A stretch of DNA of 64,000 bases, from contig JAKFAO010000008.1 of assembly GCA_021527695.1 (NCBI GenBank), positions 496,001 to 560,000 of the forward strand, read 5' to 3'. Each line of letters begins with the position of its first letter. Positions within the stretch are counted from its first letter, which is position 1. The position numbers and the translations under genes were made by a program. The stretch comes from Naematelia aurantialba (Eukaryota; Basidiomycota; Tremellomycetes; Tremellales; Naemateliaceae). Under the pieces are notes generated by a model, which was not told where the DNA came from, did not search any database, and worked only from the letters and a program-made list of their open reading frames with translations. Positions 14,226 through 24,203 of the stretch are shown here, one piece after another.

Positions 14226-15349
14226 CTGCAGTCATACTGCCTTCGTTTGCAACCATCATCCTGACCATCCCTTTGCAACCATCGTCACGACCATCCATCT
14301 GTCACATCCCTCTGCAACCATCTTGCTCAACCATCATCCTCAACCATCATCCACCATCTGGACATCCCATCCATCACTCATCGTCCGCCATCACGCCACA
14401 CCGACCGAGTGATCATGCAGGCGACTTACCGGTGTTGCGCGATGTTTCAGCAGTGAGCTTGACCCATCTGTCCTGGTGAGCTTCTCCACTGAGCAGGAGC
14501 ACGTTGAGAACCCATCCTCAAGCACGAATCACTCCCACCCGATCACCCAAGTTCCCATCGCTCCGACCAGAGCTCCCAAGTACCAATCATTTCGCCGTAG
14601 CGACCATTCTGAAGCACCGACCGTCTGACCGGAATGCCAACCATGGGCGCGGTAGGCGTGCTAGACGAGGAAGACGAGGAAGACGAGGAAGACGTGCTAG
14701 ACGAGCGAGACGAGGATGACGTGCTAGACAAGGAAGACGTGCTAGGTGAGGAAGACGAGCTAGACAAGGAAGACGAGCTAGACAGGGAAGAAGTGCTAGA
14801 CGAGGAAGACGGGAACACAAGAAACACGTACGATACAGACGAGCGCCGCTCAAAGCCCCGCATCAACTCCCTCGACCAGTCATTCATGACCATGCCTGAT
14901 CGTGGCCCTCTGGCCTAGCTCCTGGCAGCGGCGGCGGGACGACACCCGACGAGCGACGAGCCCACAGGCGACGAGCGACGGTACCAACACCACGAGCCCA
15001 CAATCTGCTCACTAGACAGCCTGCTGGCGGCTGCTGCGGCTGCTGCGGTAGTGGCGACCAAGCAATGCACGTCGACGTCGACGGAACAGGCAACGAGAGC
15101 GACCACAGGCCAATGATGAGAGTATACGAGAATAGCCTTTTCATCACTCCACTCGATCACGGGGTCTCCACACTCACCCCGGAAATAGACACGGAGAAAT
15201 GCTTCCGCTGCCGCGCCGGCTCGGAGCATTTCCCCAATCAACCTTCCCTTTCATCATCCATCAATTAATCAATTGTGGCAGCCATCTCCAACGTGGCTCT
15301 ATACATCTGCTCATCCATTCGCGCGGCTCCGGGTGCATCGCAGCAAAAA
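14226..15349. other. Repeat-rich region between BTB-like gene and 5S remnant
   Basis: 14160-14400 is an imperfect array of CAACCATCATCC-type words, and 14640-14815 is an acidic-codon repeat (separate entry). At about 15229 on the minus strand an ATG opens a short frame (MLRAGAAAEAFLRVYF) followed by a GGTGAGT donor-like site. It could be a 5' exon of the BTB-like gene, but I cannot connect it. No other supported gene was found. Confidence 0.4.
14657..14815. repeat. GACGAGGAAGACGTGCTA-type tandem repeat
   Basis: Units of 9 to 24 bp built from GACGAGGAA and GACGTGCTA. All frames on the plus strand read as acidic repeats and the minus strand as Ser-rich repeats, so openness here is not evidence for coding. 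Confidence 0.8.
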
Positions 15350-15424
15350 CTTCAACACCCAGGATTCGGAAGTGGTCCCCCACCTTCCTACTGACTAGGC
15401 GGTATCGTGCTTAGCTGCGCAGAG
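15350..15424 (-). rRNA. 5S rRNA gene, 3' portion (split by retrotransposons)
   Basis: Read on the minus strand from 15424 it runs CTCTGCGCAG, CTAAGCACGATACCGCC, GGTGGGGGACCAC and AATCCTGGGTGTTGAAG, the middle and 3' end of fungal 5S rRNA. A T5 run at 15345-15349 follows and fits a Pol III terminator. GAAG at the 3' end can pair with CTTC at the 5' end of the other fragment (23913-23963), as in 5S helix I. The two fragments overlap by the 10-bp CTCTGCGCAG; together they give about 116 nt, the usual 5S size. The internal control region (A box, intermediate element, C box) falls in this part. Confidence 0.9.
15415..15424 (-). repeat. Target-site copy 1 (CTCTGCGCAG) at 3' end of element A
   Basis: The 10 bp are identical to 19549-19558 and 23913-23922. 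Here it joins the 3' tail of element A to the remaining 5S sequence. The identity extends to 12 bp (CTCTGCGCAGCT) with the copy at 23911-23922. Confidence 0.9.
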
Positions 15425-15508
15425 TTAGATACATGTCTGTGTGCTTGGAGGGCATTGTCCGGGGCTGGCTATGTTACAGGAGTGTTGGCTGGGTGAGACT
15501 CATCTATT

Positions 15509-18500
15509 CTACTCTACTCGGAAGGTGCGGCCTCTAGCCTTAGCTAGAGCAACTGCTATACTCGTTGTCATCCATCCCAGGGCCTGTGGTGAGACCCCCC
15601 ATCGCTGCCATGTTCTCAGCTTCTCACTTGTTGCCTTCTCTTGTATGCCACCGGTGGAGAAGACCAGGGGGAGGAAGGGCGTGGCTCCACGGTCGAAGGA
15701 CTTTGGGAGGGCATCGACCTTGCGCTTGGCTTGGTAGGACAGGGTGCGGTGTATCCTCGCAGAGATCTCCTGGGATCGGGATGGGTCAGTTTCGTGTGTG
15801 GGTGGGAGGCCCGTAGCCATGTGCTGCTGGTGGGTTGGGGCAAAGAGGGAGACCACCTTGAGGTCATACTCCTCGGCCAGGAATGGGCGGTCATCCCCTG
15901 TGTGGGTTAGGCGAATGTCATTCCGCCTGTCAAGGCCAGCCATGACGGGTTCGATTGTGACGTCCAGGCAGGCGGCTGAGCGGAGTCCGGCGGCTATGTG
16001 GTGTTTTATAGCTTCGTGCCGCCTGACTCGATAGTCCTTTCTGGCTGGGCAGACTTCATCGTGACCAAGATGGTTGGGCTGGGAACACAGAGTGCAGAAC
16101 CCTGTGTGGCCTGGGAGAAGGGTTCTGTAAAAGAGGTTGGCCTGGATGTCGGTATCTGAGAGGGAAAAGCGGGCAGAGGACGGGACTGCGGTGAGCCATC
16201 TCCGGCCGAGCTGGCTGGCCGCTTCAGTGAGGGCTGTCTGCTCTGTAAGATGGAGGGTTGCAATGAGCGCATCCCGTCGTTCGGAGAATGCGATGTGGCA
16301 GAGGTCTTTCTGAGTGGCTGGGGCAGAGTCGGTGTCGGTTCTGAGGCCGGGGACGAGAGAGGCTGCAAGGACTGAGTCGGCAAGGGAGGATGCGGAGTCG
16401 TATGCCATGGGGGCACACTCGGTATGGGAAAGCAGGCCTAGACCTCCCATCGAGGGGGGCAGCGAGAGTATGGATCTGTCTCGATCTTGGAGTGCATGGG
16501 GGGGAGCCATACCCCGAAGGGAGTCAAGGGTCGTAAAGAGGGAGGTGTCAAGGTCATCCCAGAGCTCGGTAAGGTCATCCGATCGAAGGGTGCGGAGGAG
16601 ATGTCGGAGTCTGTGTTGGTATGACTGTCGGAGGATGAGGAGTGCGTGCTGTCGTGGGAGCGAGAGCAGGGGTGTGAGCTGGGATTGGAGCACGGAGATT
16701 TTGTCGGCAAGGAATTTCGTGCGGGCCTGCCGGGAGCCAATGCAGGTGCCCAGCAGGTGGATGGGGTTGGTGCTGGTGTTGGTGAGGTCGTAGAGTTTGC
16801 ATTTGTTGGGGTTCAGCTGGATGGGGGAGGAGGGTCGGGAGAAGAAAGTGACGGCAGTCGTGAGTGCATCGGGGTTGGGGGCAAGGATGAAGATGTCATC
16901 GAGGTAGGCCAAAACCAGGTGGTCGGGGCCAAGGAGAAGTTGTAGGTCATCAATGAGGTCACGGATGGCAATTGAGAAGAGGAGTGGGCCCATGGGGTCC
17001 CCTTGACGGATGCCCTGGGCAGAGGTGAGGTGAAGGGTGGCCTCGTTGGAATGGACCAGGAGTGGGGTCGGAGTGTTGTGGGCCCATGAAGCAAGGCGGA
17101 GTAGTTGGGGAGCATGTCGGCGGATGGCACTGGCCATATGGGTGCGGGAAAGAGCGTTGAAGGCATTGGAGAAGTCGAGGCTAACCAGGTGCGTGTGGGG
17201 GAAAAGCTGGTGGTGGTCGACTGCATGTTGTACTGCCCTGGTGATGGGCTCAGTGCCCCCCTTGGTGCCCACACCAAACTGGTGTGGGGACAGGAATTCT
17301 GGCTTGAAGTTGGCAGTGAAGAGTGCTTTCATAGCTAGGCGGTAGAAAAGCTCCCCAACTGCGATGGGACGAATTCCCCCATCGGGCTTGAGGAGAGGGG
17401 TGATGCGGGCGGTGCAGAGGAGGGACTGGCAGGGGGCGGTTCCAGCTGCAATCTGGGTAACCAGTGTGCGGTAGAACACCTTAAAGGCCGTTGAGGAGAG
17501 GGCAAGGGAAAGGAGCTTGACGGTCCAGCCTGTGGGGCCCGGAGTGGTGTCAGGCTTGAAGGATTTGAGGGCGAGGATGATGTCTTCGGGGCCCGGAGTG
17601 GTGGGAAACGGGGCGGAGTGTGCGATGGGGTTGTCGAACGGGTTCTGCTCGCCTGCTGGGTGTTTGTGGCGGAGGGAATCTTCCGTTTGAGGGTTAAGGG
17701 CTGCGACGCCTATGTTGTCGGAGAGAGTGCGGCCAGCCTTGCCAACCAGCCCCGCCTCGACCTGGGCGGTGGCCCTCTTGTAGGTGTTGGGGGGGGTGGG
17801 GGTGGGGTCTTGGGGGGTTGCGGTGGGGGGGAGGACCTTGGGGTATGCGGCGAGCCTTGCGGTGGTAGCCTTGTGGCCCTGTCGGAGGGCAGGCACAAGA
17901 CCCAATTTGATGAGGGCAAGGATGTCGAAGAGCTTGGCATCAGAGGGGGAGGCATTATAGTCGGAGGCAAGCCTATCGGTGCAGGCTATGAAGGGGCCGA
18001 CCAGGCTAGGGTGCAGGTGTTTGCTGGAGCCTGGGAGGGGAAGTAGTTCCGCTAGGGTGGAGGGGGGGAGAGCCCGGGGAGGGGAGGGGCTGGGGGGGGG
18101 TGCAGGGGTCATGGATGTCCCCAGGCGGCTGGGTGGGGTGCTCCGGGCACCTGATGGTGGGCGGGAAGGGTGCGAGAGTGATGTGGGGGCGGAAGGGAAA
18201 CGGCGGAGGGGAGTGGAGAATGGGGAGATGCCCGAGCGCCCCTTTGCATCTGCAACTGGGGAGCCAGCAAGTCGGGCGGTCATGGCTGCTGTGCGTCCCT
18301 GGCAGTAATTCGACTTGTGGCTATTGAGGGCTTTGGCGGAAGGTTTGGTGGTACCACCACAGTCGGTGCAGACCATGACAGATCCTTCGGGGAAGTCGGA
18401 AGCGAGGAAGGGGTACCCAGGGTGGGATTTGCGGAGGTGTTGGAATAGCCCCCCCTTGCTTTGGGGGCATAGGGGGCATCGGGGTGTGGCTGGCATGGCA

Positions 18501-18673
18501 TGGAAGAGGTCTCCATCCGGAGAGGCAGAAGGGTGGGGTGGGGACTGGCCCGGGGGTGGGCTCCTGTGCTCTGCCTGCTCAGGTGTGGTGCCGGTGGTCT
18601 GGGTGGTGGGTCCAGCAGTCGGCCCGGGAGAAGGCGAGTGGTTGTGGGGGGAGGGGATGGCGGCGTGAGGCAT
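15509..18673 (-). CDS. ORF2 of element A: zinc fingers, reverse transcriptase, restriction-like endonuclease (intact)
   Basis: An uninterrupted 1054-residue frame from the ATG at 18673. The first 40 residues are Pro-rich. Two zinc-finger-like motifs follow: CPLCPQSKGGLFQHLRKSH and a CTDC...H...C motif. The RT domain shows LLKPDGGIRPIAVGELFYR (fingers), VSLDFSNAFNAL (motif A aspartate), IRQGDPMGPLLFS (motif B) and AYLDDIFIL (catalytic YLDD). Downstream comes a CCHC knuckle, CTLCSQPNHLGHDEVC, then a conserved RHEA helix. Next are RRNDI and EEYDLKVV, matching the D...DxK core of the endonuclease that nicks target DNA for target-primed reverse transcription. All key residues are present. The frame overlaps the end of ORF1 by about 95 bp. 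Confidence 0.88.
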   Translation of the reverse strand: MPHAAIPSPHNHSPSPGPTAGPTTQTTGTTPEQAEHRSPPPGQSPPHPSASPDGDLFHAMPATPRCPLCPQSKGGLFQHLRKSHPGYPFLASDFPEGSVMVCTDCGGTTKPSAKALNSHKSNYCQGRTAAMTARLAGSPVADAKGRSGISPFSTPLRRFPSAPTSLSHPSRPPSGARSTPPSRLGTSMTPAPPPSPSPPRALPPSTLAELLPLPGSSKHLHPSLVGPFIACTDRLASDYNASPSDAKLFDILALIKLGLVPALRQGHKATTARLAAYPKVLPPTATPQDPTPTPPNTYKRATAQVEAGLVGKAGRTLSDNIGVAALNPQTEDSLRHKHPAGEQNPFDNPIAHSAPFPTTPGPEDIILALKSFKPDTTPGPTGWTVKLLSLALSSTAFKVFYRTLVTQIAAGTAPCQSLLCTARITPLLKPDGGIRPIAVGELFYRLAMKALFTANFKPEFLSPHQFGVGTKGGTEPITRAVQHAVDHHQLFPHTHLVSLDFSNAFNALSRTHMASAIRRHAPQLLRLASWAHNTPTPLLVHSNEATLHLTSAQGIRQGDPMGPLLFSIAIRDLIDDLQLLLGPDHLVLAYLDDIFILAPNPDALTTAVTFFSRPSSPIQLNPNKCKLYDLTNTSTNPIHLLGTCIGSRQARTKFLADKISVLQSQLTPLLSLPRQHALLILRQSYQHRLRHLLRTLRSDDLTELWDDLDTSLFTTLDSLRGMAPPHALQDRDRSILSLPPSMGGLGLLSHTECAPMAYDSASSLADSVLAASLVPGLRTDTDSAPATQKDLCHIAFSERRDALIATLHLTEQTALTEAASQLGRRWLTAVPSSARFSLSDTDIQANLFYRTLLPGHTGFCTLCSQPNHLGHDEVCPARKDYRVRRHEAIKHHIAAGLRSAACLDVTIEPVMAGLDRRNDIRLTHTGDDRPFLAEEYDLKVVSLFAPTHQQHMATGLPPTHETDPSRSQEISARIHRTLSYQAKRKVDALPKSFDRGATPFLPLVFSTGGIQEKATSEKLRTWQRWGVSPQALGWMTTSIAVALAKARGRTFRVE

Positions 18674-19532
18674 TGTGTTGGTGTGCACCGGGTGGGAGGT
18701 AGGGGTGGGGGAGAGAGTGGGGTACTGTGGTAGTCACGTGACTACCGCGGTAATATTTGCCTGCGGTCGTTGCAGGGGGGATTGCCCAAAGGGGAGATTT
18801 TCTACTACCGCGGTAGTGCACAGGGTACCGCGGTACTCGAGTGGAAGTTCGTTCAACTCCCTCTATTGCGAGTAGAATCTCGATCAACTGTTGACGCGAC
18901 AGGAGGTATAGAAGGCGATGTGGGTGGTGGTCTCGTCGAGGGGGCTGTGCTGGTTTGTGGGGGGTTGGCAGGGGTGGTAGGTCTGGTGACCAGGGGGAGT
19001 AAGCCGCCAGGCGAGAGGTGGTCCGGCGTTGGGGTTCGTGGTGGGGTGGGGCCCGTTCTGTGGTCACAGGAGGGAGGGTGTATGGGGGGCGAGATTGGCG
19101 AGTTGCCTCAAGTGATGTTGAGCGGGGTGGGAGGGGAGTTCTGGGCCGGGGAGGTAGGCTGGGGAGGGCCTGGGTGGGGGGAAGGGCTCGTCTGGCTGCG
19201 GGAGGGTGTCGGGGAGGGCGAGGGAGGGCAGAGACAGCGTGGGCGAATCGCTGGACCTTGAGGGCCAGGTCTGTCAGCCTGGTTGTCTGGTGGGGGGAGG
19301 GTGTGGTGTCGCTGGGGAGGGGTGTTGGGTTGTTAGGCCTGGCAGGTGTTGGGGGAGGCAGTGGGGAGTCCGGCAGGGGACTAGGGAGGCTGGGGGAGAC
19401 CTGGGAGGTCTCGGGGAGGGTTGTAGTCGATAGGTTCTTTGGTAGGGCCGGTAGCTTTGGTAGCTTTGTGGGGTCGACAGCGGTTGTCGAGCACGCCTGC
19501 GGTGATGTCGAGGACCGCAGGTTGTACGGCAT
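18579..19532 (-). CDS. ORF1 of element A: Pro/Arg-rich basic protein
   Basis: An open frame from ATG 19532 (MPYNLRSSTS) to a stop at 18579, about 317 residues, very rich in Pro, Ser, Thr and Arg with no recognised domain. An in-frame ATG also lies upstream at 19568, inside the 3' tail of element B. A segment LLYLLSRQQLIEILLAIEG resembles LREYLLERRRLIDNL near the end of the element B counterpart, supporting homology. Its last third reads through the palindrome cluster and into ORF2 in another frame, so its natural end may have been earlier. By analogy with other non-LTR elements it might bind nucleic acid; that is inference. Confidence 0.5.
   Translation of the reverse strand: MPYNLRSSTSPQACSTTAVDPTKLPKLPALPKNLSTTTLPETSQVSPSLPSPLPDSPLPPPTPARPNNPTPLPSDTTPSPHQTTRLTDLALKVQRFAHAVSALPRPPRHPPAARRALPPTQALPSLPPRPRTPLPPRSTSLEATRQSRPPYTLPPVTTERAPPHHEPQRRTTSRLAAYSPWSPDLPPLPTPHKPAQPPRRDHHPHRLLYLLSRQQLIEILLAIEGVERTSTRVPRYPVHYRGSRKSPLWAIPPATTAGKYYRGSHVTTTVPHSLPHPYLPPGAHQHNASRRHPLPPQPLAFSRADCWTHHPDHRHHT
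18729..18835. repeat. Palindrome cluster (TACCGCGGTA) of element A
   Basis: TACCGCGGTA occurs at 18743-18752, 18806-18815 and 18826-18835. An 18-bp perfect palindrome GGTAGTCACGTGACTACC lies at 18729-18746, overlapping the first. Start-to-start spacings are 63 and 20 bp. The cluster sits just upstream of the ORF2 start and inside the ORF1 frame. Equivalent motifs occur at the same place in element B. Confidence 0.85.
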
Positions 19533-19548
19533 AAGGCCTTGTGGTCCC

Positions 19549-19558
19549 CTGCGCAGAG
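19549..19558 (-). repeat. Target-site copy 2 (CTCTGCGCAG) between elements B and A
   Basis: It lies exactly between the 3' terminus of element B and the first base of element A. The plus strand continues CCCCTGCGCAGAG, so on the minus strand element A begins GGGACCAC. Confidence 0.9.
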
Positions 19559-22504
19559 TTAGATACATGTCGGAGCATTTCTGTGCGATTTCTACTGAGG
19601 CTGCGTAAGGGAAAGAATCAATGTCCTAGGTGTCGTCTCCTGAGTCATAAGTGTGGCCCCTGGCCTTGGCTAGAGCGACGGAGATGCTGAGCAACATCCA
19701 GGCGTGAGCCGCCGCCGGGAGCCCCCACTTCTTCCATTGTAACATCTTCTCCCTCGTCTTCTCCTCTTGAATCCCCCCACTTGAGAATACCAGCGGGAGG
19801 AACGGGGTGGGGGCGGTATCGGTCGCTGGGAGGGCATCCACCTTGCGCTTGGCCTGGTATCCCAGGACCGACTTGATACGGAGGTCGATGTCCTCAGTGG
19901 TTGAGCGCTCCGTTTGAGGGAGACGGGCCGACTGCAGGGCGTGGAGGTGGGTTGGGGCCGAGAGGGCAATGATCTTGAGGTCATACTCCTCGGTTAATAC
20001 CGGAGCGTCACCGTTATTAGAGATGCGGATGTCGTTGCGTCGACGCAGCCCTTTAATGAAAGGCTCCACCTGTACCGAGAAGAGTGGTGTTGCCCTGAGC
20101 CCAGCCGCTAGGTGATGTTTGACGGCTTCGTGGCGGTTGGTGCGGTAGTCCTTGCGTCCCAGGCAGGCCTCGTCATGGCCAACGACATTTGGGGCATTGC
20201 ATTTGCGGCAGTGCGTGGAGTGGCTTGGGATGAGGGTGCAGTAGCGGAGGTTGCACTGCACATGGGCATTGGAGAGGGAGAAGCGTGGGGCCGAGGGGAT
20301 TGCTGTAAGCCATTTCCGGCCCAACTGGGAAGCCGCCTCTGTAACAAGCATCTTCTCGTTCATGTCTAGCGAGCCCAATAGTTGGGTATGTCTGGTGGTA
20401 AAGGCTTCTAGACAGAGTGATCGTTGATTGCTGACCTCATGGTCAAGGTCAAGGCCAGGGATGAATTTGGAGAGGACGGTGTTGGCAAGGTCCCCTGCAG
20501 CTTGATAGGCATGAGGTGCACATTCCAGATGTGAGAGAACTCCAAGGCCACCCATGGATGGGGGGAGAGATAGGATTGCCCTGTCGCGAGTGAGAGAGGT
20601 TGGGGGGACTGTGGTGCCTCGGATTGAGTCCATGGCAGACCAGAGGATGTTATCGAGGCGTGCCCACTGGGTGCCAAGGTCATTCGATTGAAGGGTGCGC
20701 TGAAGGTGCCGCAGCTTCTGCTGAATGGACCGGCGGAGGAGGAGGAGGGCGTGTTGCTTGGGCAAGAGGTGTAGGTCTGACACTGCCTCCTCAATGAGGT
20801 CGATTTTGGAGTCGAGGAAGGCCGCCCTGCCTTGAGTGGATCCCAGGCAGGTGCCCAAGAGCGTGATGGAGTGTTCGCGTATGTGGTCGATGGACACAGA
20901 CTTGCACTTGCTGGGATTGAGGTGGAGTGGGCTGTCTGGGGATGCAAAGAAGTCGATGGCCTTTGGGAGGGCTGTATCATCGGGGCTGAGGATGAAGATG
21001 TCATCAAGATATGCCATGACGAGGTGGGTGGGGCCAAGCTTGTCCTGGAGTTCCTCAAGACGGTCCCGGATCGCAATCGAGAAGAAGAGGGGACCCATTG
21101 GGTCCCCTTGGCGGACACCCTCGGCAGACTGAATGACCTGGGTGGTTCCATTGGCATGAAGGTAGAGTGGGCTGGGTGAGGCAAATGCCCAATAGGCAAC
21201 CCGCTGGAGATCGGGCGCGAATCTGCGGATTGCCTGAGCCAAGTGGGTACGGGGAAGTGCGTTGAAGGCATTGATGGCATCCAGGGAGGTAACGTGGGTA
21301 AAAGGAAAGTTTGGGTTGCCATCTAGGCAGTGCTGGATGGCTCGAGTAATCGGCTCAACACCGCCGACAGTGCCAATGCCCATTTGGCATGGGGAGAGGA
21401 AGTCTGGGCGAAAGTTGGCGGTGAAGATAGCCTTCATTGCCACTCTGTAGAAGATCTCGCCAACTGCGATGGGGCGGACACCCCCGTCGGGTTTGAGGAG
21501 GGGCGTGAGGCGTGCCGCACATAGGAGATGGCGCCCTGGTGCTGTTCCCGTAGCGACGCCTGTGACCAGGGAAGTGAAGAAGGCCGCAAAGGTGTCGGAG
21601 GCCAGGGCTAGGTTGAGGAGGTTTACAGTCCATCCTGAGGGTCCCGGAGAAGTTTCTTTGCCGATGGTGTCCAAGGCCTGGAGAATCTCTTCCTTACCCG
21701 GGACCGAGGGGAAGGTATTGGTGGCGTGAATTGGGGGGAACGCGCCTGGGTTGCCTTCGGGGTGCTTCGAGAGGAGTTGGGAAATGGTGTCTTGTGAGAG
21801 AGGGGCAATCTTGGCAGAATTGTTGAGGCTGCGTTCAGCTTTGCCGATGAGACCACATGCAACAAGTTCTTGGGCTCGAGTGTGTCGGTTGCGCTCGAAG
21901 CGAGTGGATGGGGGGGGAGTGGGCCATTGGACATCGGGGTAGGCATCCAGGCGGGCCACCGTGGCTTGGTGACCTTTGACAAGCCCTGGGGCTAGACCCA
22001 CTTTGATGAGGGCCAAGATGTGAAAGAGATTGGTGTCCGTGGGGTCGTCGATGTAAGATTGGGAGATTTTGGTGACGCAGTGTAGGAAGGGGCCAATGAG
22101 GGCGGGGTGGAGGTGCTTGTATGTGCCTGGGAGTGGCAGGAGGTCAGGCAATGAGCGTTGGGGCATGAGCTCTGGTAGGAGGGGTAGGTTGGTGGGGGTG
22201 GAGTCTGGTTCAGGGGCTTCTTGTCGGGAGGGTGTATCGGGTGCCTGGTGGTGGGCGGTCTCGGATGGGTTTACGACTAGGTTTTGGAGGGATGTGGCAG
22301 ATGCAGAGGGCCTCACTCCAGACACACTGCGGCCACGGTGGTCTGTGGGGTGGCCTCCCGCCAGTCTCATCCGCATGGCATCGGTGCGGCCTAGACATAG
22401 GCTCCTGGAATGGACTGTGAGGGCCGAGGGGGAGGGTTTGAGGACCGCTCCACAGTCTGGGCAACAGACGACTAGCCCAGTAGGGAAGTCAGAGGCCAGG
22501 AAGG

Positions 22505-22509
22505 GGTAG
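22505..22509. repeat. Target duplication GGTAG, left copy
   Basis: Direct 5-bp repeat matching 22922-22926 on the other side of the solo LTR. Removing the LTR and one copy restores the ORF2 frame of element B. Confidence 0.85.
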
Positions 22510-22921
22510 TGTCACGATGCTCCGGTCTAACTTCGGTGACCTGGGACCGCTGCACAACGACTGGCTTGGAATTGGACGAGTTCCGCGCGAACTCGTTGAG
22601 AGGATGAGGAAAGCCTTGACTTGGGACTAGGACGTGGAGTTGGGGGACGTGGACTGAGACTTGGGCGATCTAGAAGAACTCAGATGAGTGGTTGTAGACC
22701 CGTCGAAGTTAGAACGAGATCGTTGGGTCTTGGACTATGGGACTCAATCGAGGATCGCTGAGGAACCTCACTACAATCCGGTAAATTCTATATACTCTCG
22801 TCGAGACGAGTAGATACTCGCTCAACCTAGACGAGTTCCTCAAGCCCCACGTGACAGCCATGCCGCCATCCCGGTCGCGTGGATAGTCACGTGACGACTC
22901 GACGACGTCTCCGTCATGACA
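22510..22921. mobile_element. Solo LTR (412 bp) nested in element B
   Basis: It starts TGTCACGATGC and ends CCGTCATGACA, so the ends are TG...CA with TGTCA/TGACA inverted repeats. It is flanked by the 5-bp direct repeat GGTAG (22505-22509 and 22922-22926). No internal retroviral-type coding region is present, so it is a single LTR left after recombination between two LTRs. It carries TATATA at about 22790 and CACGTGAC words near 22850 and 22888. Orientation and superfamily (Ty3 or Ty1 type) cannot be fixed without a full-length copy. Confidence 0.88.
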
Positions 22922-22926
22922 GGTAG
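22922..22926. repeat. Target duplication GGTAG, right copy
   Basis: Right-hand partner of 22505-22509, directly after the terminal CA of the LTR. Confidence 0.85.
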
Positions 22927-23221
22927 CCCCGGTGGGCCTTGCGGCAGTGTTGGAAGAGTTCCCCATGCTTCTTGAGAGGACAGAGAGGGCACGATGGCTT
23001 TGGGGTGGCAGGAGTGGTCGTTGCCGTTGATGTTGATGCCAGTCGGGGGGAGGTGCGTCGTTCAACCCGGGGGGATTGGGGGGCCTGAGTGCTGCCCGCC
23101 GCTGTCTTGGGCTCTGGCTGTGAGTCGGATGGGGATACAGGATCATATGCAGGAGGAGGGGAGGTCATAGTGGGTGAGAGGGGTTGTGGGGCTCCGGGAG
23201 GTGGAGGTGGGGAATGTGGGA

Positions 23222-23293
23222 TACCGTGGTAGATTGCCACTTTACCGTGGTAAACTGCCACTTTACCGCGGTAAAGCGGCGATTACCGTGGTA
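23222..23293. repeat. Phased palindrome array (TACCGYGGTA) of element B
   Basis: TACCGTGGTA at 23222-23231, 23243-23252 and 23284-23293, and TACCGCGGTA at 23264-23273. Start spacings are 21, 21 and 20 bp. The array lies between the ORF1 stop (23306) and the ORF2 ATG (23168), as in element A. Confidence 0.88.
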
Positions 23294-23305
23294 GTGCCTG
23301 AATTT

Positions 23306-23902
23306 CTACTTTGAGAGAGAGGAGACGAGGTTTCGTAGATTGTCAATCAACCTTCGTCTCTCGAGTAGATATTCTCTCAACTGTTTGCGTTGGGAGTGGC
23401 GGGATGTTGTGGGCTGGGCTGTAGGATGGGGTTGTCGGGGGTTGGTGGTGAGGGCGATCGCGTACGTGCGGAATGCCACCGTTTGGGGGGCAAGGGATGG
23501 TCTGGGGCGTGTCGGCGTTGGTGGTACTTGGGTACCGGGATGGGTCTGGGCAGTGGTCCTGGGCCAGGTGGTGTGGGTGATGGTTATGATCTTGGCAGCC
23601 AGGAGGTGGATGCGTGCTTCGATCGGGATCTGTTGGGTTTCGGCGGGGAGCAGTGGCCAGCGGGGTAGCGACGGTAGCTGGGCTAGGTTTGCTTTGGGGG
23701 CCGGGTGCCTCTTGCCTCGTCTCTTGCGAGTCCCGGGTGGAGTGCGAGTGCTGTTCTTGGAGGGGACCCCCGAGGGGGGTCCTGGTGGCTGCGGCGGTGC
23801 TCCTCCCAGCGTCAAGGGGATCCAGGCGGGTCGGGGCGGGAGTGAGGGGTGTCTTGGCGGTGTGCTTGTAGTCGTTATGCTTGTGTCTAGTCTAGCTACC
23901 AT
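23306..23902 (-). CDS. ORF1 of element B: Pro/Thr/Arg-rich protein
   Basis: A 198-residue frame from the ATG at 23902 (MVARLDTSIT), only about 10 nt after the 5S/element junction, to a stop at 23306. It is basic and Pro-rich, with a Leu/Arg-rich end (QLREYLLERRRLIDNL) that may form a helix. There is no recognised domain. It ends about 12 bp before the palindrome array, which is probably the ancestral arrangement, while the element A counterpart reads on. A role in RNA binding is inference only. Confidence 0.5.
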   Translation of the reverse strand: MVARLDTSITTTSTPPRHPSLPPRPAWIPLTLGGAPPQPPGPPSGVPSKNSTRTPPGTRKRRGKRHPAPKANLAQLPSLPRWPLLPAETQQIPIEARIHLLAAKIITITHTTWPRTTAQTHPGTQVPPTPTRPRPSLAPQTVAFRTYAIALTTNPRQPHPTAQPTTSRHSQRKQLREYLLERRRLIDNLRNLVSSLSK

Positions 23903-23912
23903 AAAGGCTGAG

Positions 23913-23922
23913 CTGCGCAGAG
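23913..23922 (-). repeat. Target-site copy 3 (CTCTGCGCAG) at 5' end of element B
   Basis: Third copy of the shared 10 bp, here in its natural 5S context. The minus strand continues CT and then leaves the 5S sequence (CAGCCTTTATG), entering element B. Confidence 0.9.
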
Positions 23923-23963
23923 CAGACGGGATGCGGCGCTTTCACGATCCTATGGCCGAAGAT
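23913..23963 (-). rRNA. 5S rRNA gene, 5' portion
   Basis: Read on the minus strand from 23963 it gives ATCTTCGGCCATAGGA, TGAAAGCGCCGCATCCCGTC and CTCTGCGCAG, the first 50-odd nucleotides of fungal 5S rRNA. CTTCGGC can pair with the 3' end of the other fragment at 15350-15356. The fragment stops within loop/helix sequence just before the A box, where element B begins. This half alone has no complete internal Pol III promoter. Confidence 0.9.
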
Positions 23964-24203
23964 GATTGTTGGGGCTCTAAGAGGTATCAAATACCGCTTT
24001 CGACAAAGCCGCCGCCCCACGGATGTCCTAGGCTGAATGTTTGAGAGACGTCTAATGCCTACAAAGTGGTGCGTCCAGCTGCCTGCTGGTTGAAAGTAAA
24101 AACTACAAGGTCAAGACCCTCCGTCATGTCGTCAACTATCGTATATCGTATACCACTCGTCTTAGTCGCGTTCAAATCGTACTCAGTGACACTCATCGGC
24201 AGT
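23964..24203. other. 5S upstream flank and 3' region of MDM31
   Basis: The minus strand just upstream of the 5S start contains GGTATTTGATACC (a small palindrome with TATTTGATA) about 25-35 nt before the gene. It might act as an upstream TATA-like element of the 5S gene. The rest is the 3' side of the next gene. Confidence 0.35.

Follow-up and report, generated by a model that had tools for sequence, protein, structure and literature searches.

How a 5S rRNA gene can end up with its two halves on opposite sides of a block of foreign coding sequence is the question raised by a locus of the fungus Naematelia aurantialba. The DNA analysed here (the window) comprises 64,000 nt of assembly GCA_021527695.1, positions 496,001-560,000 of the forward strand of contig JAKFAO010000008.1, which is labelled C14 among the contigs of this genome. 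The minus-strand block 15345-23963 of the window was found to be a single 5S rRNA gene divided by two sense-oriented elements without long terminal repeats (non-LTR elements), with element B located upstream and element A downstream. Taking the explanation as a whole, we consider it very probable that both belong to a site-specific family inserting in 5S genes between nt 41 and 42 by target-primed reverse transcription.

A 5S rRNA gene divided by two elements

The block is composed of the following parts:

23911..23963, minus strand: 5′ part of the 5S gene (nt 1-53), of which the final 10-12 nt form copy 1 of the target-site duplication
23913..23922, minus strand: target-site duplication copy 1, CTCTGCGCAG (12 bp counting the CT at 23911-23912)
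19559..23910, minus strand: element B, upstream, inactive; its second open reading frame (ORF2) is 62% identical to those of the elements on contigs C1 and C8
19549..19558, minus strand: target-site duplication copy 2, CTCTGCGCAG, at the border between B and A
15425..19548, minus strand: element A, downstream, with open ORF2
15415..15424, minus strand: target-site duplication copy 3, CTCTGCGCAG
15345..15424, minus strand: 3′ part of the 5S gene (nt 42 to the end), plus T5 terminator (15349-15345)

Because the Rfam scores of both halves (18.8 and 24.4 bits) remained below the cut-off of 38, so that neither was called at the gathering threshold, they were identified by comparison with the 5S genes of this genome itself, from which a query of 121 bases was assembled. 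This query aligned to the window halves with 95% identity (nt 1-57, E 1.4e-18) and 99% identity (nt 43-121, E 3.6e-33), and matched 9 full-length 5S genes at 91-98%. A preliminary description of this DNA had taken the ends of the block (23963-23913, and 15424-15350 followed by T5) for pieces of one minus-strand 5S gene with the same sequence at both junctions and at the inter-element border, and the 5S alignments of the flanks and the three CTCTGCGCAG copies bear this out. Its tandem pair of sense-oriented elements was likewise recovered, but with corrections, in that B has been inactivated by an LTR, A and B are distinct subfamilies (their ORF2 proteins being 53% identical), and an upstream frame, ORF1, had been overlooked.

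Insertion at the same base of 5S genes across the genome

Whole-genome searches covered this one genome of 21.0 Mb, and their match counts are lower bounds. Searching with the 5S query revealed 16 matches, corresponding to 9 full-length genes, 1 decayed copy (contig C13, 87%) and 6 halves that form 3 split genes, located in the window (C14) and on contigs C1 and C8. This element family is responsible for all three splits, which lie after nt 41 in every case, with the elements in sense orientation. A protein search with ORF2 of B yielded at least 16 matches, and the long copies whose ORF2 is at least 50% identical to it (B itself, A, and the C1 and C8 elements) all proved to be located at 5S genes (4/4, in 3 loci), after nt 41 and in sense, in agreement with the proposal of the preliminary description that most homologues would sit after the same 5S base.

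The 3′ junction was identical in all four elements, with GACATGTATCTAA being followed directly by 5S nt 42, whereas the target-site duplications varied between 8 and 12 bp; the elements had no LTRs of their own. The 3′ motif CATGTATCTAA had 5 genomic occurrences, including 4 at the ends of the elements, compared to one for a reversed control pattern, and the 5′ end of the C1 element matched 3 places in the genome, all of them at 5S. Moreover, 5S base 42 was C at the window locus and A at C1 and C8, which is the same as in the upstream half of each locus, and in all three split genes the two halves retain complementary bases at the variable helix positions (GATCGTG/CACGAT; GATCTTG/CAAGAT), from which it follows that each split locus was once a single gene. 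The target 5S genes lie away from contig ends, and no telomere-repeat or spliced-leader target was found for the family.

The C1 and C8 elements differ in only 4 of 3,914 alignment columns, both with open ORFs, and when the 5S parts are included their blastn alignment is 99.4% identical. Since two elements with so few differences occupy different 5S genes, with different flanks, this pair has moved recently and in a site-specific manner. If landing were uniform, 3/3 loci would fall within 13 x 121 bp out of 21 Mb with a probability of ~4e-13, a figure that includes the window's own locus; the same formula applied to the 2 further loci, leaving out the window locus that brought the family in, gives ~6e-9. 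The 9 intact 5S genes (L038-L046) occupied 9 separate places in this assembly and not a tandem array, each with a TATA-like stretch ~20-30 bases upstream.

Open reading frames of elements A and B

Within element A, the following features were distinguished:

18579..19532, minus strand: ORF1-like frame, Pro-rich, 317 aa from the ATG at 19532
15509..18673, minus strand: ORF2 from its first ATG, with two zinc fingers, reverse transcriptase (RT; YLDD), CCHC, and RHE...EP...RND...EEYDLK
15425..15437, minus strand: 3′ end motif GACATGTATCTAA

ORF2 of A is uninterrupted and measures 1059 aa from its first listed start (15509-18688), the first ATG being at 18673. Element B showed the following features:

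23306..23902, minus strand: ORF1, 198 aa, Pro-rich, MVARLDTSITTT..., with its first 30 codons almost invariant compared to the C1 element
22914..23168, minus strand: 5′ piece of ORF2 with the first zinc finger, ending at a stop inside the LTR
22510..22921, minus strand: solo LTR of Ty3/Gypsy type, 412 bp, TG...CA, flanked by CTACC at 22922-22926 and 22505-22509
19626..22376, minus strand: main part of ORF2 with RT, CCHC and endonuclease motif, an open frame severed from its N-terminus by the LTR
19559..19571, minus strand: 3′ end motif GACATGTATCTAA

Element B is dead because the 412-bp LTR, which carries the 5-bp duplication CTACC, breaks its ORF2 within the zinc-finger region. This LTR is 98% identical to those of a full Gypsy-type element on contig C13, which encodes RT, RNase H, integrase and a chromodomain and is itself inserted into, and splits, a relative of the 5S elements. 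As the two LTRs of the C13 element are identical to each other (412/412; L037 5599-6010 and L033 4020-4431), its insertion was recent.

An ORF1 of ~200 aa, Pro-rich and with a basic C-terminal stretch, is common to B, C1 and C8, while A carries a diverged Pro-rich frame. Over the 30 codons at the start of ORF1, B and C1 show 0.20 differences per synonymous site, compared to 0.65 in the remainder, and because of this paucity of synonymous differences the 5′ end of the element seems to be constrained as nucleic acid. Across ORF2, nonsynonymous changes between subfamilies were fewer than synonymous ones, with uncorrected differences per site of 0.26 versus 0.69 for B/C1 and 0.34 versus 0.66 for A/C1. 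Between the ORF1 and ORF2 regions, the palindromic repeat TACC(A/G)CGGTA was observed 3 times in A and 4 times in B (18743-18835, 23222-23293), and was absent from the C1 and C8 elements.

Domains of ORF2 and affinity to known clades

The Pfam family RVT_1 was detected in both window ORF2 frames (2e-16 and 1e-16). Across four frames, Pfam matches were confined to RT, with no apurinic-type endonuclease family among them, and NCBIfam returned only group II intron RT matches far under the cut-off (25.2 and 20.6 bits, compared to 300). Both window frames further contain YLDD and a CCHC...RHE...E...ND...D series, and zinc fingers were present as a pair in each of A, C1 and C8, were separated by the LTR in B, and were not matched by the pattern in the relative on contig C9. 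Aligning eight relatives from this genome revealed C865, C868, H876, C880, R890, H891, E913, P914, N923, D924 and D942 to be invariant in 8/8 rows. The predicted catalytic positions of a PD-(D/E)XK nuclease would be occupied by ND in place of PD in 8/8 rows, and D-X-K is seen in the 5S, C3, C4 and C9 rows.

When a profile of this alignment was compared with solved structures, R2 proteins came out on top (E 9.7e-19), followed by one RNA-directed DNA polymerase (8c8j) and LINE-1, and in the same match the CCHC/RH/EP stretch aligned weakly but collinearly to the R2 C-terminus. The motif and the collinear R2 match together support the reading of this part of ORF2 as a putative restriction-like endonuclease, as put forward in the preliminary description.

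The likeness to R2 does not in itself place the family in a clade, and membership of the CRE clade (Cnl1, MoTeR, FoTeR), with a change of target from telomere repeats to 5S, is compatible with the site-specific family proposed here. With its spacing C-X2-C-X7-H-X3-C-X9-RHE-X20-E, the endonuclease motif comes near the pattern published for CRE/MoTeR (PMC12857005). However, the elements have RND for R/KPD or RAD and RHE for RHD/N, the comparison was made by published pattern, and R2 structure matches do not decide between clades. Taken together, we give CRE membership a slight edge over its opposite.

Proposed insertion mechanism

The 5S elements bear the hallmarks of target-primed reverse transcription, namely an exact 3′ junction, a short duplication and a loose 5′ junction. 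Whereas the site, the orientation, the duplications and the order of the ORF2 domains are observed, the binding partners, the order of nicking and the way in which the element RNA is made are inferred. The ORF2 protein would bind the element RNA through the RNA 3′ end, with its zinc fingers directing it to the 5S gene. A bottom-strand nick between 5S nt 41 and 42 would then prime reverse transcription, leading to one exact 3′ junction, and a top-strand cut ~8-12 bases downstream would yield the duplicated (A/C)TCTGCGC(AG) and a looser 5′ junction. Four 3′-end pieces of the elements did not fold beyond their shuffles (z 0.35 to 1.48).

At the 5′ junction of the C8 element, extra partial 5S copies (nt ~31-53 and 45-53) were found between the 5S half and the element (L026), which suggests slippage or template jumping during 5′ end joining. 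The C8 3′ half also has one extra C compared to intact 5S genes. At the 5′ start of A lies the 9-nt 5S word GGGGACCAC; with 5S 8-mers occurring 6 times in A compared to 7.7 for shuffled 5S, only its position stands out, and this as a weak signal.

The retained nt 42-121 contain what we take, from general knowledge of promoter position, to be the region of the internal RNA polymerase III (Pol III) promoter of 5S genes. As nt 42-121 are kept together behind the element, this promoter region and the terminator remain joined, and the element is located immediately before an intact Pol III control region. The idea that Pol III also transcribes the element itself was dropped, since TTTT runs showed no clear depletion relative to 200 dinucleotide shuffles: B contained 1 (25/200 shuffles as low or lower), C1 contained 1 (38/200) and A contained 5 (174/200).

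With ORF2 proteins of only 53% identity, A and B are separate subfamilies that hit the same gene successively. We favour B as the first to insert, given that it is the element with the LTR and that the 5S on either side agrees with its 12-bp duplication. In either order, only one side of the site still offered 5S sequence to the second insertion.

Alternative explanations and counterevidence

That B and A might instead derive from one event, via unequal exchange or template jumping, would account for their head-to-tail order with the target 10-mer in between, and would have parallels in the tandem relatives on contigs C9 (7 differences in 3,408 bp) and C15 (~96-98% identity), which resemble recent tandem copies. 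We nevertheless regard it as improbable, since the divergence between the two ORF2 proteins means that they were separate subfamilies before they met, a situation that two insertions fit.

It is less probable still that the 5S pieces belong to the element, as a 5S-derived head or tail, and are not its target. Such arrangements do exist in 5S-like short interspersed elements and Cassandra LTR elements (PMC10886601, PMC11202950), and the extra 5S fragments at the C8 5′ junction could be read in the same way. However, the halves vary between loci as intact 5S genes do (A/C at nt 42; a G-C or U-A helix pair), while the C1 and C8 elements are almost identical. In addition, the 5S variant of each target is seen on both sides of its insertion, and the B/A border holds only the 10-bp site.

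The idea of general non-LTR elements whose 5S flanks reflect a chance landing or an assembly join could appeal to there being three loci only and to the truncated C3 copy and C11 relic elsewhere, but it is hardly credible given 3/3 close-family loci at the same base (~4e-13), different flanks and matching helix bases between the halves.

A number of observations nonetheless count against a site-specific 5S family inserting by the proposed mechanism. The preliminary description had held that copies at random, non-5S sites would contradict 5S targeting, and while there were none among the four long close copies, two shorter ones have no 5S adjacent. One, on contig C3, is a 5′-truncated copy with 48% identity to B that the tree joins to A (support 0.986); the other is a relic of 77 aa on contig C11 with 52% identity. 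Because both are fragments, their original sites may have been lost, but we still count them as exceptions. A search for 5S remnants at C3, C4, C8b and the C11 relics gave best scores of 27-32, within what 20 shuffled 5S controls per site reached (maxima 32-39). The specificity itself derives from 3 insertion loci in one genome, and the sole 2 ORF2 changes between C1 and C8 are both nonsynonymous, which is too few to show selection.

R2 has a ribozyme like that of hepatitis delta virus at its 5′ end, but no ribozyme family was found in 15300-24050, the four Rfam matches up to E 5 being the two 5S halves and two bacterial small RNA families, and the 5′ fold did not go beyond shuffles (z -1.04). 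With regard to the endonuclease, the lysine after the last D is replaced by S (D-X-S) in the C15 and C13 relatives, and RND departs from the R/KPD or RAD of the published CRE/MoTeR pattern (PMC12857005). Structure prediction for ORF2, with the two window proteins as input, was unusable (mean predicted local distance difference test score, pLDDT, of 32).

Relatives with other targets

In a tree of ten ORF2 sequences, a 5S group including C3 (1.00), a C15+C13 group (1.00) and a C4+C8b group (1.00) were recovered, while the order among groups was weak (0.59). The C9 relatives, 38% identical to B, form a tandem pair with 7 differences in 3,408 bp between the copies, directly after the only U2 small nuclear RNA (snRNA) gene found in the genome. 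This gene is intact upstream, and each element is followed by a further copy of the gene's portion from nt 65 to just beyond its end, with 0 and 2 mismatches; the repeated stretch measures 127 bp, or 129 bp if two shared bases are counted:

L029 3469-3659: U2 gene at the C9 locus
L030 1567-1693 and 5102-5228: U2 repeats at the C9 locus

Judged from the sequence, the arrangement resembles a long target duplication, by which the upstream gene is kept whole. The C15 relatives also form a tandem pair (35-36% identical to B and ~96-98% to each other), with TTTTAC repeats on both sides (L031/L032), and the C13 copy (37% to B) has CACTCTT-type repeats on both sides (L033/L037).

We lean towards the view, as a moderately probable one, that one restriction-like-endonuclease lineage within a 21-Mb genome has split into subfamilies with unrelated targets (5S, U2, and hexamer/heptamer microsatellites). 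The 127-129 bp duplication of the U2 subfamily would then restore, upstream of the element, the sole U2 gene found, making an essential single-copy gene a safe target.

The C4 relative has a 15-bp minisatellite of 11.6 perfect copies on its 5′ side (L028 8076-8249). A U4 snRNA gene ~0.2 kb from a C11 RT relic (L035 4612-4767, 4163-4399) is on the opposite strand and was treated as a coincidence. No relatives were confirmed in viral contigs (0/2 and 0/105 pattern stretches).

Comparison with known elements

One close counterpart is R2 of animals, the top match among solved structures, in which zinc fingers, a single RT, the CCHC knuckle and the restriction-like endonuclease motif follow in the same order. 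However, R2 targets 28S and the family described here 5S (3/3 loci), the latter has a separate upstream ORF1, and it carries YLDD where R2 proteins show FADD in the alignment. The zebrafish element Mutsu has an endonuclease of the apurinic type, whereas the present family has a restriction-like motif with RVT_1 as the only Pfam match in 4 frames, and Mutsu moreover has an animal host. Both are non-LTR-type elements with two ORFs in 5S genes (PMC11202950).

Exact 3′ and varied 5′ junctions are shared with R2 and Utopia (PMC4640811). Utopia and YURE, at U2 snRNA genes, further resemble the relatives described above in having a restriction-like endonuclease, a small-RNA-gene target and occasional tandem insertion, the C9 relatives likewise being at U2. 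In contrast, the sequence downstream of Phytophthora Utopia begins at U2 nt 39 and that at C9 at nt 65, with a 127-129 bp repeat, and no fungus is named in the part of PMC4640811 drawn on. Cnl1, MoTeR and FoTeR show almost equal order and spacing of the endonuclease motif, FoTeR and MoTeR1 having a long RT plus endonuclease ORF (PMC12857005), but these elements are telomere-associated and grouped with CRE/SLACS, whereas the present family is located in 5S and, compared by published pattern, carries the RND motif.

Other 5S-associated elements are of other classes, use other endonucleases or have their site outside the gene. They include the Dada-5S DNA transposons of fish, which insert in 5S (PMC8869645), Jockey-like non-LTR elements in the 5S arrays of Tribolium freemani, reported alongside Mutsu (PMC11202950), and Dictyostelium TRE5 and yeast Ty1/Tj1, which insert upstream of 5S (PMC5911963). 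Elements with a restriction-like endonuclease have been described to target rRNA genes, spliced leaders, U2 and microsatellites (PMC4640811), and in fungi telomeres (PMC12857005). No restriction-like-endonuclease element in 5S was encountered in the literature searched by listings and abstract openings, a body that leaves Repbase and most subscription papers outside, and an earlier description is possible. The family combines a 5S target with a mechanism of probable R2/CRE-like type.

Implications

Site-specific elements of the R2 kind serve as model systems for target-primed reverse transcription, and their use as tools for DNA insertion at repeated sites is under study. To our knowledge, 5S is a Pol III gene common to all eukaryotes. 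The 5S target adds such a Pol III gene to these systems, with two almost identical open-ORF copies (C1 and C8) in a small genome that also holds relatives with other targets, and comparing the N-terminal parts of these relatives could reveal the residues that set the target. If one lineage has indeed come to use several targets, it would offer a natural series in which to study how these proteins switch target. The finding also bears on how Naematelia aurantialba tolerates an element in three of its about a dozen dispersed 5S genes.

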